From contig NW_002476434.1 of assembly GCF_000189635.1 (NCBI RefSeq), positions 124,001 to 188,000 of the forward strand: a stretch of 64,000 bases of DNA, read 5' to 3'. Of the stretch, positions 37,558 through 59,300 are shown piece after piece (the first letter of the stretch is position 1; the number at the start of each line of letters is the position of its first letter). A program made the position numbers and the translations under genes. Under the pieces are notes generated by a model that saw only the letters and a program-made list of their open reading frames with translations, was not told the origin of the DNA and searched no databases. Source of the stretch: Tetrahymena thermophila SB210. Taxonomy: Eukaryota > Ciliophora > Oligohymenophorea > Hymenostomatida > Tetrahymenidae.

Positions 37558-39072
37558 TTAAAAAAATAGTAGCAAAGGATTCTTTAAACTTTTGTATGGT
37601 TGAAACAATTTTTTGTATAACTATTATAGTACTACTAATAAAGAGTATATTCCTTATTTTTGTTTTTGGTTCTCTAACAACAAAGAGTTAAAACTTTAAA
37701 TAAATAAATGTTTAGGGAGTCAAATAAATCCTTTGAGTTAATATTAAGAAGTATTCCTAACTTAAAATTCTAAGCATAACTTGAAATCACTAACTTTTAA
37801 TCTATGGTTGAAATAAAAATTTATAGCCAATCAAGATTATATTAATATTTACCTCTAATATTTCCATCCATATATGTATGTATAATACTTTAGTTACTAT
37901 GTTTCCAAGATTGCATAATATCAAATTATTATACCTCAAATCCATCCATCAAATATCTTCTAAATAACTTTTCATAGCTTTTACCCAAATAACAATTTAT
38001 TTATTTTATACTAATTAAAATTACTAAATTAAATAATATTTTATATTTTAATTTAACTATTTATTTGATCTTTTAAAAATTTCATTATTTTAAAAATATA
38101 TAAATTTTTTCTCAAAAAAATAAATTAAAGCAGCATTGACTAAATTAAATTTTAAATTCTTTAAAATAACAAACTAAAATTAAATATAAATAATTAAGAA
38201 AATAAATTTTAATTTTTAATTTCTTCATAATTACAGTTAAAGTTAAAAATAAATAATTAAGAAATTAATTTTAAATTTTTTGTTAATTCATCATTACAAA
38301 TTAATGCTTAAAATAAATTAATAGATGAAGAAGAAAAGAATATTTAATTCTTAAATTGTTTATAAATACTTATTAAAATTCGAAATAAATGAATTGTTGA
38401 ATTACAAAGTAACATTTAATTCTTATATTCTTTACAAATATTAATTAAAATTCGATAGGATAAAAAACAAAATAACATTTAATTCCATACAATTACTATA
38501 AAAATACTTTTTAAATTCTTTACAATTACAAATAATACTTTGAAATGATAAATAAATTTCCATTTTTAAATCTTTAAATTAATCAAATAAATAATAAATT
38601 ATTTTTTATTTTCATAACTCATTTTTTAAATTTAAAATATTTTTTTACAAAAATCAATAAATTAAATTTATAATTTAGATTTTAAAATATTTGAAATGAA
38701 AATTTATAAAAAAATAAATTCATAAAAAATATGAAGGATTTATAAATGATAAATGAATGTTATACTAAAATTTTGTCAAAATGTTTGTTTTTTAAAAAGA
38801 GGTAATTATTTTTTATTTATTTAATTAGGATTTTTTAATTTCTTAGATTGATTAATAGATAGAGAAAAAGTCTTTCAGATAGCAAAACAAATGTTTAAAA
38901 TATAGAGTAAATACTTATTTATAATTTAGAAAAATTGAAGAGTTTTGAAATTCAATCAGAAAGATATGATGTGCATTTGTTTGATATCAAAAATAATATC
39001 AATTGATAATAAATATATAAATAAATTAATTAATTAATTGTAAATTTTTTACTAAAGTTTATTAGGTTAGAA
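37558..39072. other. Divergent intergenic region
   Basis: About 1.5 kb between two divergently transcribed starts, so both promoters should lie here. AT-rich throughout; several poly-T/poly-A tracts; no frame or RNA gene recognised. Confidence 0.65.
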
Positions 39073-39705
39073 ATGAAATTCTTAAGCTTTGTCTTACTTA
39101 TTTGCGCTTTAACTGTGTTAGCCAAGGGGGAAGAAGAATTTGATAAATCATAATCATTGGAAGTAAAAGTTGATACTTACGATGACTTCCTTAAGTTAAC
39201 TAAAACTAATGATTATTTCCTTTTCTTTTACAGTCCTTCATGCCCTTACTGCCAAAGAGTTTATTCTGAATTGAAAAACTTGACTACTTTGATTCAAGAC
39301 TACAATAAAAATGTAGCTATTCCTTAAAAGAAGGCTGAATTAAAGTTAGCTCATATTGATGGTATTGAAAATAAAGCTCTTATTGATACTTTATCAGTTG
39401 AATTTTATCCTAGTTTTATCTATTTTATCAATGGATTTATTAGATTCTATCCTCTATCAAGTGAGAGAAATGCTAACAAATTCTTTGAATTTTACACTTA
39501 AGATTATATCAAGCATCTACCTGAAATCCCTGGACTTAAAAGAGACATTTTGACCAAGAAGGCTTTATGGTCTTTTTATAACAAGCTCGCTAATAAGTAT
39601 GAATAATTACCAGAACTTTTCTGGGCTGCTGGTGCTATCCTTGGTTTAGGTCTTCTCCTCCACCCTTTCCTTTATAGATAATTCCCATCAGAAAAGAAGT
39701 AATGA
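39073..39705 (+). CDS. Membrane-anchored thioredoxin-like (PDI-family) protein
   Basis: Intronless, 210 aa, ATG 39073 to TGA 39703-39705. Residues 1-17 are a signal peptide. A thioredoxin-like domain follows, with the redox motif CPYC at 57-60 in the context FFYSPSCPYC, and a later TLSVEFYPSF segment matching the cis-proline strand of the fold (Pro near 131). A single hydrophobic span lies at about 180-197, followed by a short basic tail ending EKKQ, reminiscent of but not identical to a dilysine ER-retrieval signal. The arrangement resembles small TMX-type disulfide oxidoreductases of the ER, which catalyse thiol-disulfide exchange on secretory proteins. CPYC rather than CGHC suggests a specialised or reducing enzyme. 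The codons are relatively C-ending, which suggests decent expression. Confidence 0.9.
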
Positions 39706-47568: not shown

Positions 47569-50500
47569 ATGAGTAGTGAATAATCTAATTTAGCGAACAC
47601 ATAGACAAGCTTAAAAGTTATAGATAATCACTCTGAACTAAAGCAATTAAAAAATAGTAATTAGAGCTTAAATTCTGTTAAAAATCAGAATAGTTAAGTT
47701 CATTTACAGCAAGATATAGAAAAGAAATCCCATGTAGAAGGTATTTTTTTTTAAATATATTTTTTTAGCAATTTATTTATAAAATGGAGGATTTAAATAG
47801 ATAAATTATAAATAGCCTTTTATTTAATAAAAACGAATCATATAATTTTCTTCGAATATGCTTAAATTTAATTTATTTAAATAAAAAGGAACTTCTAATG
47901 GTGATAAAAAGCTTTTTAGTGATATCTAGAATTAAAGTAGCAATAATAGCATTGAAAGAGGGGGCGAGAAACATCATCACCAAAATTCTAGTTAGAATTA
48001 GTTAAAGCATTAGCATCATATAAATTATATGAGAAACGAATATGACTATTATTTTGGTAATAATAGTTACATTTCTTTTTGCAAAAATCACTCTACAAAA
48101 GAAGCTACTAAAATATGTTTGCATGCTGGTTGCGCACTTACTCGTGAAATATGTGATTATTGTGAAAAATAGTAACCACATGCCAGTCATCCTCAATCAA
48201 TAGTTGATGCTAAGAAATTTTTTGTAGATGTTGAATTAGGACTCAAATAATTTAGAATGAATTCTCCTTTGATGAATGCTTCTGAAATGCTTGAATAAGC
48301 GCGATAATTTATTTTACGCCACTTTTAGAGTATGAAGAATATGCTTGTTGAGAAGTCTCATAAATTAGTGACAATGTTAGCTTTAATAGAATAAACTGAA
48401 AGTGCGAAAAGAACTCCAATGAAAACTTATGAGTTGGAAAGATTCATTAGAGATGTAATGGACATATTTTAAATTCACAAATCTGGTAAACTAGAATCTC
48501 ATTATTCTCTACAATTGCTTGACTAAGATATAATCAAAGAAGAAATAAGTAGTGTTTTATTTATGATTAGAGACTTAGAGAATGTAGTAAGAGATTTGCA
48601 TGATGATTTTGCTAAGGCATTGAAATTTGGAGACTATGGCTACTATGCTGGATTAGAAAGGCATTCAAACCATGGAGGAAAACATTAAATTCAAAATTAA
48701 GAAAGCAAATAAAACAATAATTATAGCAACTAGGCATTCAATTAAAGCAAGTAACATTAATCTTTATTGATAAAATCCTTACAAATAGCTAATTAATTAC
48801 CCTTATATTTCTATATTATATTCTCTTTTATAATAAATCCCTAAATCATACATATAAATAGTTTTTTCTATTCTAACATTTTGTTGAAATGAATACTATT
48901 TATTTATTATTTACTAATTTTAAATATTTTTTATAAATAGCCATGGGCATCATGAAGGAAGAGAACATTCTAAATCTGTTTCAGACCATGCCAGCAAATC
49001 TTAAAATTTTAATGCTTTCTAAGGAAATGCTTCTGTATTTGGATAAGCTGCTATTAACCAACCAAGTAGCTACCCTCATAACTACGATAATCTTTAATAT
49101 AGTAAAAATAATTATAGTCAATTGGGTTAAAAAGACAATTCAGCAATAAAGACCTAAGGTAAATAGATATTTTAGAATTTTAAAGTGAAGTATATAAAAA
49201 ATATTTACGAAAAGGAAATTAGAAAGTATGGGGATAATAGCAATTTCATCCTAGTTCTTATAATATTTAAGCAGATATTGAAAATATAGAAGGTTCAAGC
49301 AACCATAATCAAAAAAAGAATACTACTAACTAGGTTACAACTATAGGATCAGCTAACTTAATTCCATAGACTGAATTTAATGCTGATGTCCTTATGGACC
49401 CAGCATTTTTAAAGCGTCCTAGAGGCCGTCCTAAAGGTAGTAAATGCAAAAGAAAAGGAAAATACAAAGGAAAATATACCGATGAAGAAAAATTATAAAT
49501 TTTATCAGAAGTAGGAAAAAGTAAAAGTGTCTAAGTTATTGCAGAAAAATACAGCATTTAGAATTCGTTGATACGCTATTGGGCAAGATAACTTAAATAT
49601 GAATTAGATCCTTAAACAGTTTCCTCTAGAAGACCTTATCGTACATTCTCTAGAGAGAAAAAAAAAGTAATTGTAAATGAGGCTATAAAAAGAAGAGATA
49701 TTGTTACGGTTGCTTAAGAATATGATGTAAATGCTTAAGTTTTAAAAAGATGGATTTTAAAGAGTGCTCAAGGTATTCTTTAGTCTTAAGAAATGAGATA
49801 AATGATGAACGCTGTTCCTAATATTGCTGGTGATGAAGAAGATGATAATAGTGGAGATGATTCTGATCTGCACTCAGATGAAGAAGATGATGATAGCGAT
49901 GATGATGAAGAAGACGATGATGACGAAGATGAAGATGAAATGGCTGATGAGTAAAACTAAAATAGGGACGAACAATTTTTTGGAAGATAAAATAACAGAA
50001 TATAAGATAATGATTCCTCTAACAATTAATTTAAACATGGAAAGAAAACAAACTCTCCTTCATAAAAACCAATTAAAAAATAAATGGAACCTCATGAAAA
50101 CAATACTAATAATAATAGTAACAGCTTTAATAATTTATACAGTCAAAATGAAGCTAAGCAAAAGGATGAAGTACTCATTGAAGATATTGAGGTTAAATAC
50201 GAAGAGAATAATACTTAAGAACTAAAAAATAGGTAGGATTAATAAATAAATTAATCAAACATGCAGTCATAAAACTAACAAAAAGAGAAGGATGTAAGAA
50301 AAAGAAGAAAATAGGAAGAAGATGAAAGTGAAGAAGATGACAGTGAAGAGGAAGACGAAAGTGATGAAGAAGAAGGTGATTATTCATCATCAGCTAATGC
50401 TCCCTCTAAAAAATTAAAAACAGAAGCAAGCAAAGGCGAAAATAATAAATAAAATATATCTCCTAACTAGTAAAATGGTTAAAGCAATAAAAATAGAAGC

Positions 50501-50782
50501 AATATGAATATAATTGATGCCAATATAAATGATATTTTAAATTCAGATATTTTGAAAACAGTAGGCTTAAAAAACCTAGATCTTTCAATGGATACTTAGG
50601 CACAGTCTGAATAATTACTTTTGATGCAAAAGAAAATTGAAGAAGAATTATTAAAAATGAAATAATAATAAATGGAGGCTAAGCTTAAAAAAGAAAAATC
50701 TGATTAAAAAAAATAACTTAACATAATTCACTAAAAACAAAACTAGCAAAATTAACAATAACCACAATAAATTTCAAAATGA
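47569..50782 (+). CDS. Nuclear protein with B-box zinc finger, AT-hook and tandem helix-turn-helix
   Basis: Four exons (47569-47740, 47889-48750, 48941-49158, 49227-50782) close in phase to 935 aa. A B-box type 2 zinc finger lies at residues 122-158, spaced C-x2-H-x8-C-x11-C-x2-C-x5-H-x2-H, followed by a helical coiled-coil region to about 300, as in TRIM-like proteins. After an H/N/Q-rich linker comes an AT-hook core RPRGRPKGSK (481-490). Two helix-turn-helix units follow: YTDEEKLQILSEVGKSKS...IRYWARQL (501-540) and a second ending VLKRWILKS (about 560-600), resembling the psq/CENP-B-like DNA-binding domains of transposase origin. Two long Asp/Glu runs flank a basic KRRK patch, and a coiled coil ends the protein. 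Binding to AT-rich nuclear DNA is the likely role. It is convergent with the piggyBac-derived gene. Confidence 0.85.
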
Positions 50783-51777: not shown

Positions 51778-54700
51778 TCACTTTCTTTGAGTACCTACAC
51801 CTCTATATATTTAATTATTATTGTAATTATCTGCCCCTTGATAATTTCTGCCATATGCAGGATCTGAAGTAGTATATCCATTCATGTCAACTCCTCTTGA
51901 GTATCTATCATATCCATTTGTTGCATTATTTCCCATCCCTTATCCATATCCATTCATGTTGTTTGGCTATCCTAAATCAGAGTAACCATATTGATTTCTA
52001 GGTGGTAATTAGTCTTAGCCATGATTTAATTTCTTTCTGCCTCTTGTAGCAGGAATATAGCTTCTGTTTATAAAAAATAATTATTTGATAAATTTATAAA
52101 TATCTAAGAAAAATTACGAAGGGGCATCACTTCTAAATCCAGAGTCATCCAAAGCAGGTCCTCTTCTTTTTAAAGGAATTTATTATCCCATCATATTTCC
52201 ATTCATTTGAGGTGGTACCATTGAGTTAAAGGCAGGGCCTGAAGTTTCATACCCATCTTAAATATTAGCTGTTCTTCTTCTCCTCACTTAAGTTTATTAT
52301 GGTTAATATCCATTGTACCCATTGTTCATTAAAGGTTACTAAATAGGAGGATTAACCGTATTGTAACCTCCATTGAGTCCATTACTTCCATATCCATTTT
52401 ATAATGGCTTAGGTGCCATTTTATCTATTGGCTTTTTAGATTAAAAATATACATAAATATTCATTTTGAAAGGATGATTAAGTTTGTATTACAACTGTTG
52501 TAACTGAATTTTTTAGGGTGCTTAGCCTAGAGAAATTTTTTTTATCAAAGTTGTCTCTGTTAACATTTCTATTTCAAAAAATAAAATAAATAAAAATCTA
52601 TTAAAATAAATTTGATATTTATCATACATCTCTAAATGATATACTTCAAAGCACTTGTCACATAAATAAACTGGCTTTTTATTTTGTAAAGAGCATTCTT
52701 AGCATGTTATGAATGTATTATTTTAAATATTTTTTTCTTGTAAGCAAACTAAGCAAATACCTTACTTACCATCTTTTTTCTAGACATGAGTACCTCCTTG
52801 TCTGATATTCTAAAAATTATAATTATTTAATAAGATGTTCGTTTATTTTCTTAAAATTTTACTTAATCATTTCCCTAAAAGACAGGTGAATTAACTTCAT
52901 TCATTATGAACTATTCATTATTATCTGATGATTTTGGAGATTTAGAAAGAGCGTGAGTTTCAACATTTATTACACTTTCAACAACTTTATCTGTTTAAAC
53001 TTCAACATCAATTAGTTTAGATTTAACATTTTATAATTCCTCTTATTTTATCTTTTGTATTTATTTTTAGAGTAAATCTTATGCTAATTTAAATCTAAAT
53101 AGTCTGTAATCCATTTTTTCTATTTAAATATTTTAAAAAAATTTTTTAAATAAAAAAGATTATGGTTATTAAATTTTTTATCATTTTATTTACCTTTTGC
53201 TTGGGAATAAATTATATAAGAGTTTTAAATCGCTATCTCGGATAACTCTTCAAAGATAGATGTCGTATCATTATTGATACTTACAAACCTGTATTCTGTT
53301 AGTAGCATTCTAAGCTTTTAAGTTATTTTTTAAATTGCTTGCTTATGCTTTTCAACCATTTTATCTTATTTAACTGTACCACTGGTAGTTAAAAAGACTT
53401 CTTTCTTTAAATTTTCATCCGATTTAATAAGAAGCTAAGTTTAAGTCTGCCTATCAAATATAGTCTCACTGTTATTTGCTTTTAATGGTTTATTGTGGAG
53501 CATTTCATTTTAAAGAGATTATGGAAATTAGTCAAATTTGTTATTTAAAAAAGAACTTATGTGTATTTTGCTATTCAAAAGTTCTTAAATTTTTTCATAA
53601 TTAGAAAAAAATTCTTCGTTCTAAAAATATACATGATGGTTTTGATTAGTAAAACTCTCTAAATTTATACAAATTTAATTTGCAAAAGAACTCATATCTT
53701 TGACAACAAAGTAGCCAAAAACAAAGGCTGAACTCAACTCACATAAGAATATCTATGTATAAACAGAATTATTGTGAATAATTTCTTCACCAACTTTTCC
53801 TTTTTTTGATATTAAAACCAATTCTTAATCAGAAGTCTAGGAATTTTAAGCTCTCTAAACAAAGTCTTAAATAAGTTATTCATTATTTAAAATGTCTTTA
53901 TTTAACTCTCTTTCGCAATCAAGAAGGAATTAAAATCTATTTTTAAAACATTAAAATATTTTAAATATAAAATTGTAAAATTGTAAATTAGCCACCTTTC
54001 GTTTGTAAAGAGTTGGTGATATGGAGGAATTTTTTGAAGATCTTTTAGAAGGAAAAAGTCAAAATTGCTTGAGTTTTATTGTAAACCCATCAAAATTTTC
54101 AAAGCTTAATAGACTTGTATTTCTTCAATAGTATATTCCTTAACGTCATTTTATTTCTTGTAAATTTCTCTTAGCTTTACATTTGCTTTATTAAGCAGCT
54201 ATCTTAATATCTTAGTTCCCAAGAAATACATAAAAAGCCTGCTAGAATCATTGATGTTAGTCAATTGTAATGATTTGCCTCCCAAAAAATGACAAAAAAT
54301 ATTGGGAGACAATTCTGGTGGAAGTCTTTGAAATCTTTTATTATTTTCATCAGAAAGTATATTTAAAAGCAAATTATTTTCTTCTTTAACAACTTCCTTG
54401 TCATTTAAAGATTCTAACTGGTTCTCTTATTAATTAATTTAATTTGCTTACACTTCGATTTACATATCACTGTGAGCTTACTAATTTTATTAGCTGATAC
54501 TAATATTTTCCTTAAAAATTTAAGTTTAAGTTAAAAATAATATAAGTAAAATTAAAGAATACTTAATTTTCATGGAGTTAATTCTCCTCTTACATTTCTT
54601 CTCTTTCTTCAGTTTCTTCTTTTACAGCCTATTCCTATTATTATTGCATTTTATCATTTAAATGTTCTTACTCCATAAACGTGCCATCTTAGATGTAGTT

Positions 54701-55336
54701 ATTTTCTTATAGGCTATTCACTGAACCATTGACTTCTATCTAAACTAATTAATTTTAACCTTCTTAACTTTCAATTTAATTCATATTTTCTTAATCTTAG
54801 TTATGTTATTCATTACTATTATTATTATCAGGTAAATCTTTTTTATTGAAATTCTGATAATCTTCTTGTCCATCAAGTGCTTCTTTATTTTAAGATATAA
54901 TTTCTTCATTTAAGTTATCTTTTTGTACTTATTTATTTTCATTTATATTTTAATTAATTTAATATTCTAATTCTTAATTGCTTGTATCATGAGTTTCACT
55001 AGATTCCCTTTCTCGTTGTTGAAAGTGCTACTCTGTAAAATGTATAGTTTAGTCTTAATTATTTTCATCCTACAAGTTTTATTGAGGTTAAACCTATGTT
55101 TGATCGTTTCTTGGTAAGTCTTGCTCATTTGTATTTTATTATTGAAATTCATTAAAATCATTTTAAGTTAAATTATTTTTATTTGTTTAATGTTATTCTT
55201 CTACATTCTGATTTTGTTATTAAACATTGTCAAATTAAGAATTTTATTCTTCTTGAATATTAACCTCTTGTTGCATAGGAACTTCTTCCTAAACTATTGA
55301 TTGTGATGTATGTAAATCTGCTTCTCCTAATTCCAT
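51778..55336 (-). CDS. Domesticated piggyBac-type transposase with decayed catalytic triad
   Basis: Eight exons: 54563-55336, 53996-54480, 53194-53936, 52863-53119, 52628-52809, 52493-52568, 52118-52431, 51778-52063. All phases close, giving 1038 aa. Residues 1-258 are Q/N/E-rich. The piggyBac N-terminal domain shows EIQVYQALKILMGLQQ (378-393) then PYHQLFTNERF. In the DDE core, an Asp in SDQELVLISKKGK (Asp456) can align with the first catalytic Asp; the second site (family CDNWF) reads FQNEEFF with Gln525; no Asp is seen at the third. The core ends AIQNSYIIYSQ, matching the family's INSFIIYSHN. A zinc-binding cluster follows with C772, C775, C789, C792, C803, C806 and H811, as in piggyBac C-termini. 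A G/N/Y-rich tail with basic RRRR and KRRG patches closes it. In Tetrahymena, domesticated piggyBac proteins (Tpb2, Lia5) act in programmed DNA elimination; a similar non-catalytic, Lia5-like role is plausible. Confidence 0.85.
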
Positions 55337-56386
55337 TTTAAATTAATTAGTTTTCAAAGGGGATAACTTCTTAATGTTCTTTTCTAGGAAAATTAACTTT
55401 TGTTGTTTTTTTGTTAATTAAATAATATAATTTTTTGAATAAATTATAATTCAGTTTTGAAATAAGGGGACTGACTTCTTATAAATATTTAATTTACTTT
55501 CTTTTATAAACAATTAAAAATACCCAATTATAATTCTAATAATTTGATTACAAAAAAATTTTTTATCAAAAAATTAGAGTGATTTGGCTAAAATTTCTGC
55601 AGTCGATATTTTTCAAATATAAAAAATTTTAATAATCAACCCTCCAATTTATAAAAATTGAATTATTATTTTTATTTAAATAAATCTAATTGATAGACAA
55701 AACATAAAAACTTTAAATCAACGAATATTAAGAATTCTAAATATCTTTGAAATTAATTTTCACTTCTCTAATTTCTTTGAATAATAATAATAATTAAATG
55801 TAAAAAAGTTTTATGAATAAAAAATAATTTGGTATCCACAAAAGCATAAATACGTTGATAAATGGATGAATTGAAATATTTTAAATCATTAAATAATAAC
55901 TGCTAACTTATTTTATTTTGTGTTTGTTACATTATGGATAAAGTTATATTGATTTACTGGTTGAAAGTCAAAAATTTCAAATAATTTTCAATTGATAAAT
56001 TGAATTTGAAATGAATTATTTAAATAAGAATATTTTCTATGAATTATATTTAGAAATAATAAGCTATTAATAAACATAAATTTAAATTATTTCATAACAT
56101 GTTTCATTTCTAATTGTAAGTAAACTGTATTATTATTTCAATTTTAAGTTAATTGTTTAAATATTTATTATTAAAATTATTTAATAAATATGAAAAATAA
56201 TATTTTAAGAGAGCTCTTTATTTATGAAAAATACTTATTAATCAAATAGAAATAAATTTGCAAAATAATATTATAATTTTTATATAATTTCTTGGATATT
56301 TTCATATAAAAGGCATAATTTTATTTATTGAAAATGCCAGCTAATTATTTATTCTTTTTCAAAATTTAAACTTAAATGGAAAACTC
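55337..56386. other. Intergenic gap
   Basis: About 1 kb upstream of the piggyBac-derived gene and downstream of the MORN pseudokinase gene. AT-rich; no terminal inverted repeats resembling a piggyBac element were noticed, and no TTAA-flanked structure can be singled out in such AT-rich DNA. Confidence 0.6.
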
Positions 56387-59300
56387 TCAGGCAATAAACT
56401 TATTTTGGTGCCATTGTCCTTGTAAGACATCTCCATTTAAGGTATAGAAAGTTCCTGCACCATTAACAAAATCTTTATAGAATGTTCCAACAAACTTTTC
56501 ACCATTAGAGAGGAATAAAGTACCATATCCTTCTTTGTTATCATCCTTAAATTAACCTTCGTACTTTGTCCAATATTCTTCAACATTGTCAAAATCGCTA
56601 AAATCATAGGGTTAGTTTAAGGGAGCAGGATTTTCATTGTAAAGAATTCCAAAACCTTCGAATTTATCATCTACCCAGTCACCATCATAAGCTGGTTTAC
56701 CACTTGCATAGCTTAAAATACCCTTGCCATGCATCTTATTTTCTCTCCATTCACCATCGAAAAGACCACCATCTTAATAGTAGAACTTACCTCTACCATG
56801 TCTCATTCCATTGAGTTTTTCTCCTTCATACTTAGAATTGTTAGAATAATTTTCAATAACATACTCCTTTTCTAATATTTAAAAAATTCATTAAATAAGT
56901 TTAACATTTAAAAGAAAAAGTCAATAAATATTTACCTTCTGTTTAGTACTCGTTAACTAATTAGGTTTCCTATTAATAAGATTAAGGCTGAGATTATCCA
57001 AATGATTATTATATATTACTAATTTTTTAAATAAGTGTTAAATTTTTATTATTTTTTTCAATATATTTACTATGTTTAAGTGTAAGGACTACTATTTGTT
57101 GCTCCTAAGTTAGATGTACCTACTGTTGATGTTTAGTAGGTATTTGAAACCTAAGAAGGATTGAATTGGGCAGTGTATTAGCTTTAAACTTAGGATACTT
57201 GAATATTTGGGTTTTAGTTAATGTTAAGACCTTAAAATTGATTATTTAAACTCTCGATAGGTTTACTGATATCATAATTACCACCAATATTAGATAAGTT
57301 AGCTGTATAGGTTTATGATGGAGTGTAAGCTTGATAGGAAGGAGTGACTGTATTATTAGCAATAGTTGTTGTAGTAGTTGTTGTATAGGTATTAACACCT
57401 GCTAAATTTGTGTTATTTTATGGTGCATCTACAGAGTTGTTAGAAATTTTAATGTCAGCAGTGTTAGAACTTAAACCAAGTTAAGACATGGTTTCCTTTT
57501 AGTTTCTATACTTAGCAAGAATGGCTTCTATTTCATCTGAAGCTAATTTAATATTAAAGCAAATATTAAATAAATAAATTGAGTTAAAATATCATAACTA
57601 TATATAATTATTTCGTTCGTTCGTTCATTGATTAGTAATCAACCAACTAATTTATTTTTAATTAATATTTGAAATTAATTATGTTAAAGTAATAAGGAGG
57701 GAGGGTTTCTCTTTTTTTATTTTTAGGTAATCTCAATTTTTTTTTCAAAATCAAATTTTTTGGAAAATTAAAGGAGGGAAAGAAATATTTTAATAAGTAT
57801 TTTAAAATTACGCTTATATGCATCGTAGCCAGTATTTGAAGTAGTGATTGTTGTTACAGGATTACTGTTTTTAACTGTAGTAGTTGTGGTAGTTGTAGTT
57901 GTTCCTGTAGCAATGTTGGTTTAGATAGGAGGCTAAGTCAAAGTAGTAGTGATACTTGGAGTATAGAAATTGGATCCACTATTCTATGCAACTTATGCTG
58001 AATATGGAGAAGAAATTAATTCGCTCTTGAGAGGTGGAGGAGCTGAACGCTTAATAGCTTCTTCAATTGATTCGTCCTTTTTAAGAATATGAGAGAGAGC
58101 TGGGGAAACATAAGTATTAGTAGCTGTGTATGAAGAAGTTGAACCAGCAGGAACGGTAGTATTTACAATAGATTATTTGGTGACTACAGGTTGAGTGTTA
58201 GATGTTGAAGTTTAATTTACTGTAGTTAAAGCAGGAGTTGTTAATGCAGGTGATGCATTCTATACTGCTACATTAGTTGTAGTAGAATTTAATCCAATAG
58301 TACTTCCATATGTGTTAGCACTAGGACCTGGAATATAGGAAAAATTATTTTCTTTTAATCCATAAGAAGTAGTCTAGTAAGGCTTACTCAAATCGGATGT
58401 AAATTAGGTATTTGTGCTAGTAGTTTATGCAACTGGTTGATATAACTATTCTTTAGTAGAAACATAATAACCAGCTCCAGTATTTGTATTGGATACTTCT
58501 GAACCTTTTTAGAGTTCATAAGTGTTAGTTGGCTAGAAAGTAGATGAATACTTTGATGTCGAAGTTGCTGGAGCAACTGAACTAGAATACTAAGTAAGTG
58601 GAGTGTAAGGTGCAATATTGACAGTTGGGTTAGTGTATGTAACAGTAGTAGTTGTAACTGGAGAGGTATATTTGGCTGTGTAGTCTTAATTTAAGGGAGG
58701 ACTAGTGTATGTTTAAGTAACATATGTGTTGGTTTATGGAAGAACATAATTATTAGATGTTGTAACAATTTAAGGCTAAATGTCAACACTTTGCTATTAC
58801 TATTGATAATAAGTGTCTCCTCCTCCAATAGCATTTCCAATATTTTCATCTGGAATAGCATTCTTAGAGTTTTGATCCTTTGGAATAAAGGTGATTGTAC
58901 TACCTTTATCTTCAGAATCTTTGAACATGCCTGCAGAGCTATAACCAGTAGGTTGATTAGACATTTTTTAGATAACTATCTAAGGCTATTGTTGAATTTA
59001 AACTTAAACTTAACCATAATTTGGATTAGCAGCTGATCTCTTCACTACTTCTTCCTCCTACTGTTAAAATTAATAATTTCTTGGGAAAGCCCGAATAAAA
59101 TTTTTTGAAAATAAAAAAATTGTCAAGGGTTATTTTAATTAAAAGGACAACATTATATAATATACTTAATATATTAAAACTGTTTAAACTCAATTTTATC
59201 TGTAAAAAAATAAATTTAAAATTCTCAATATTATATCTGAAAACTTGTTTATTTTAAATTAATAATTAATTACTTTTGGAACTGTTGTAGTCTTGATAGT

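Follow-up and report, generated by a model that had tools for sequence, protein, structure and literature searches.

LIA5 of Tetrahymena thermophila, a piggyBac-derived gene probably without catalytic activity, at a locus without detectable transposon ends

The LIA5 locus and its surroundings

The window analysed here, a whole stretch of 64,000 nucleotides from Tetrahymena thermophila, contains a gene on the minus strand whose ATG lies at 55336 and whose TGA ends at 51778. This gene (55336..51778) is LIA5. All 12 of the LIA5 primers taken from the Methods of Shieh and Chalker 2013 (PMC3775806) match the window exactly, each in one place and with no mismatch, once trimmed to their genome-matching parts (att, restriction-site and HA-tag letters were taken off before the search). 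Their positions are the expected ones, namely the upstream flank, the start codon, the exon 6/7 region and the downstream flank. Two of the primers were searched in the whole 101-Mb genome and found a single place each, at LIA5, the remaining ten being searched within the window; with the RT primers, 0 of 100 shuffles gave a match. Three further features point the same way when set beside the published account (PMC3775806): the spliced model has the published length of 1048 aa, intron 6 (52492-52432) is flanked by the RT-PCR primers in agreement with the published layout, and EcoRI at 49561 and PstI at 55597 lie 6,036 bp apart, the wild-type fragment in print measuring 6 kb. Among the features compared (primers, length, intron 6 and EcoRI-PstI fragment) we found no difference from published T. 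thermophila LIA5. The coding region and its parts are as follows.

51778..55336, minus strand: LIA5 coding region, 8 exons, 7 introns, 1048 aa, ciliate code
54563..55336, minus strand: exon 1, Q/N/E-rich N-terminal region (gene model)
53996..54510, minus strand: exon 2, in which the DDE_Tnp_1_7 match begins, from aa 347 on (gene model and Pfam)
53194..53936, minus strand: exon 3, the three catalytic columns and the IIYS helix (gene model and alignments)
52863..53119, minus strand: exon 4, the part after the transposase core, and linker (gene model)
52628..52809, minus strand: exon 5, Cys/His cluster C782, C785, C799, C802, C813, C816 and H821, with upstream H771 (zf-Tnp_2)
52493..52568, minus strand: exon 6 (gene model)
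52432..52492, minus strand: intron 6, between the published RT-PCR primers (primer matches and gene model)
52118..52431, minus strand: exon 7, G/N/Y/P-rich tail, part one (gene model)
51778..52063, minus strand: exon 8, G/N/Y-rich tail, part two, ending in the stop TGA (gene model)

The seven introns measure 52-74 nt and were picked by hand, from splice sites and the open frame, with the published length already known. At intron 7 a second possible acceptor lies 3 bases downstream, and its use would cost one residue. An earlier, sequence-only reading of this DNA had claimed seven spliced introns, and the eight-exon model of 1048 aa, free of internal stops, bears them out. It had also described low-complexity additions at both ends, and these are indeed present: the N-terminus is rich in Q, N and E by inspection, while the last 199 aa contain 14% G, 13% N and 8% Y and are also rich in Q and P. 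The GC content is 27.3% in the exons, 12.1% in the introns and about 16% in the flanks.

Searches of the flanks gave no sign of transposon ends. The best flank-to-flank inverted match at LIA5 scored 46 and was equalled by 180 of 200 shuffles, so that terminal inverted repeats do not rise above chance, in keeping with the absence of flanking transposon ends asserted before. Inverted-repeat pairs number 126, and the 25 longest of them are rich in A+T, with 71-87% complementarity. The window contains no exact run of three GGGGTT, no Rfam match at the gathering score and, according to ARAGORN, neither tRNA nor tmRNA.

Several other open frames lie around LIA5. Beyond its 3' end, and convergent with it, a plus-strand frame at 48956-50779 (608 aa stop to stop) shows two HTH_Tnp_1 stretches in a direct scan (PF01527, E=2.6e-8) and appears by eye acidic and Q-rich; it reads as a transposase-type DNA-binding gene. 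Its 120-residue tandem region finds a single place in the species' own genome at E<=0.001. A search of the same genome with PF01527 returned no match, even though the direct scan hits this very frame, the genome search being the less sensitive of the two. Upstream of LIA5, a minus-strand frame at 56390-56887 carries four stretches of MORN repeat (PF02493, E=1.7e-22). Farther off, the minus strand at 43998-44819 matches serine carboxypeptidase S28 (PF05577, E=1.6e-29, profile positions 1-107 of 434) and is probably one exon, and the plus strand at 39007-39702 holds a thioredoxin-like frame (PF00085, E=4.5e-7) with a signal peptide and a membrane segment recognised by eye only.

A piggyBac-type core without the complete triad

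A profile search against the piggyBac family had been suggested as a check on the sequence-only reading, and it favours that family (DDE_Tnp_1_7). The Pfam profile matches Lia5 from aa 347 to 670 over positions 2-349 of its 349 (E=1.1e-57), and the proposed DDE_Tnp_1_7-like core holds over nearly the whole profile. The helix described as conserved, IIYS (aa 671), aligns with NSFIIYS of piggyBac (6X67), and the C-terminal C/H cluster corresponds to a match of zf-Tnp_2 at aa 766-822 (E=2.9e-17). Judged from its sequence, Lia5 keeps a transposase-type core together with a C-terminal Cys/His domain. The latter comprises the six Cys (C782, C785, C799, C802, C813 and C816), H821 and the upstream H771, and is a putative zinc-binding domain of the zf-Tnp_2 type. 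Its layout is similar to that of the Pgm type, upstream His included, but the last spacing is CxxxxH instead of CxxxH.

The relationship to solved structures depends on what is used as query. Alone, the Lia5 core retrieves nothing significant (best E=0.31, to an unrelated methyltransferase; piggyBat E=1.6), whereas a profile that joins Lia5 with two paralogues of its own genome matches piggyBat 9C0F (E=9.2e-42) and piggyBac 6X67 (E=2.6e-31), a signal most of which the paralogues may supply. Compared with these two transposases, Lia5 is without the triad and bears long low-complexity ends. Against a home-made profile built from four triad-bearing proteins, Lia5 not among them, Lia5 scored only 24.0 bits (bias 20.8; E=1.1e-9 in a one-sequence search), which makes it a distant relative of the four. 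When the 247 aa of exon 3 were folded by themselves, with no alignment as input, the model had a pLDDT of 35.6 and a pTM of 0.23, values too low to bear on an RNase-H-like fold.

We read the catalytic columns in three alignments: a profile, a five-sequence and a three-sequence alignment. Column 1 is alignment-dependent, with Asp466 in the five-sequence alignment, a gap in the profile alignment and Ser in the three-sequence one. Column 2 holds Gln535, in the motif FQN, by the profile and five-sequence alignments and is gapped in the remaining one. The sequence-only reading had placed a Gln at the second Asp position as well, and the residue stands in two of the three alignments; its number, Gln525, does not, being off by ten. 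At column 3, where no Asp had been seen, there is none in any alignment either: the profile puts Gln636 there, the five-sequence alignment puts Thr635, and the three-sequence alignment leaves a gap. The DDD triad of an active piggyBac transposase was thus not found in Lia5 by any of the three alignments, column 1 varying with the method, and an alignment check for all three Asp, also suggested beforehand, never recovers the full set. With no Asp at catalytic positions 2 and 3, Lia5p is most unlikely to cut DNA, and the absence of DDD is likewise published (PMC3775806). The proposal that this is a piggyBac transposase of the Lia5 kind, domesticated and probably dead as a catalyst, is therefore supported, and the gene proves to be LIA5 itself.

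The 2013 paper (PMC3775806) already reports that LIA5 derives from a transposon, has lost catalysis, encodes a zinc-finger domain and acts in development, and a follow-up appeared in 2017 (PMC5357732); among the matches listed in a search of the open-licence literature, no later paper is centred on LIA5.

Role of Lia5p in DNA elimination

According to the published work, LIA5 is expressed in conjugation as new macronuclei form, and its protein goes to the developing macronuclei. There the action of Lia5p is shown to fall between two steps, H3K9/K27 methylation beforehand and excision by the active transposase Tpb2p afterwards. Knockout of LIA5 gives no viable progeny (PMC3775806). Cells without the gene are reported still to make scnRNAs and H3K9/K27 methylation marks; unexcised IESs accumulate in them, IES circles are undetectable, gamma-H2AX is strongly reduced and Pdd1p foci are absent. 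The block is severe and incomplete, since later work than that of 2013 describes a partial loss of Tlr1 signal in 5% of cells. Lia5p is described as lying around Pdd1p foci and not filling them, and Pdd1p and Pdd3p as not co-precipitating with it. Literature later than 2013 also places it on IESs by ChIP and reports its co-precipitation with Coi6p and Coi7p, in low amounts and with no yeast two-hybrid contact.

Taken as a whole, the best explanation of the locus, to which we assign a probability of roughly 0.9, is that the gene is LIA5, derived from piggyBac, devoid of Asp at catalytic positions 2 and 3 and needed for IES excision. Against it count the 5% of LIA5-knockout cells with partial Tlr1 elimination, reported as a block that is not total, and the 24.0 bits (bias 20.8) of Lia5 in the home-made profile of four triad-bearing proteins. 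LIA5 illustrates clearly how a dead transposase can be retained by its host as an essential protein for programmed DNA elimination.

The likeliest mechanism, to which we would give about even odds, is that Lia5p serves as a non-catalytic partner helping Tpb2p to assemble or act on marked IES chromatin. The authors of the 2013 paper (PMC3775806) suggested as a possibility that Lia5p recruits Tpb2p, whether directly or not. A Tpb2p in which each Asp of the triad has been replaced is reported still to restore heterochromatin bodies (PMC3861120), and the LIA5 knockout is without foci, so the loss of LIA5 looks worse than the loss of cutting alone. In a comparison that runs across two papers, LIA5 loss resembles the absence of Tpb2p protein more than absent cutting, which fits a loss of Tpb2p loading. 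Other observations argue against such a partnership. No contact between Lia5p and Tpb2p is reported in the sources cited here, and the Discussion of PMC6143343 (2018) states that their interaction remains to be established; the low binding of Coi6p and Coi7p, the negative two-hybrid result and the failure of Pdd1p and Pdd3p to co-precipitate weigh in the same direction. Moreover, UV damage brings back foci in the LIA5 knockout, from which the authors concluded that DNA breaks lead to foci (PMC3775806), and this reading is in tension with the rescue of heterochromatin bodies by triad-replaced Tpb2p. In a more specific version, which we hold tentatively and just short of an even chance, Lia5p might be a structural subunit of a mixed Tpb2p-Lia5p complex, an excision machine assembled from live and dead transposases as with the Paramecium PgmL proteins. 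If so, its loss would mimic missing Tpb2p protein and not missing cutting. A mixed machine of this kind has already been hinted at in print (PMC6143343).

The main rival casts Lia5p chiefly as an insulator or a chromatin remodelling factor: it would bind IES DNA or chromatin and dampen the RNAi-heterochromatin loop, and excision would be blocked as a result of faulty chromatin. It is possible, and we find it somewhat doubtful. LIA5 loss is reported to raise late scnRNAs on IESs and on retained DNA, a restraint on late small-RNA production that is published as a separate effect; the co-precipitation with Coi6p and Coi7p favours it too, a review suggests that Lia5p may act directly on DNA as an insulator, and chromatin remodelling was also raised by the 2013 authors (PMC3775806). 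However, the elimination block of the LIA5 knockout is described as more severe than that of COI6 and COI7 mutants, ectopic elimination as not detectable in the knockout, and heterochromatin marks as forming without Lia5p. Very much less probable is a weak nuclease activity of Lia5p itself, with a rearranged site made of Asp466 and neighbouring acidic residues: a first Asp can be placed at Asp466 in one of the three alignments, but column 2 is Gln in both alignments that place it, column 3 is Asp in none, and cleavage by Lia5p was sought without success according to a personal communication cited in PMC3775806. That the locus is a decayed transposon copy and not a host gene, as membership in a transposase family might suggest, is scarcely credible given seven introns, an intact frame of 1048 residues, terminal repeats no better than chance and a published essential function (PMC3775806).

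Relatives of Lia5 and known systems

Two piggyBac-family paralogues of the same genome, those included in the profile above, have Asp in all three motifs.

G000:C411:156-4758: piggyBac-family paralogue (loci L003, L005, L006 and L008)
G000:C209:320800-322578: piggyBac-family paralogue (loci L001 and L007)

With approximate splicing, the C411 paralogue shows Asp spacings of 82, as between D297 and D379 of Tpb2p, and 99, against 116 in Tpb2p; in the C209 paralogue, spliced with the same approximation, the spacings are 84 and 114. Our guess from these sequences is that the C411 paralogue might be TPB2. The C411 gene starts roughly 1 kb from the start of its contig, which opens with apparent CCCCAA telomere repeats.

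Like Lia5p, Tpb2p of T. thermophila combines a piggyBac core with a Cys-rich domain and is reported to be needed for heterochromatin bodies and IES elimination (PMC3861120). In contrast to Lia5p, which is without Asp at positions 2 and 3, Tpb2p carries the triad D297/D379/D495 and cleaves DNA, according to the same paper. The PgmL proteins of Paramecium share with Lia5p a derivation from piggyBac and a part in the DNA-elimination machinery (PMC6143343). That source suggests Lia5p, together with Tpb7p, as possible functional homologues of the PgmL proteins; it regards the evolutionary relationship as difficult to judge and does not take a contact between Lia5p and its excisase as established.
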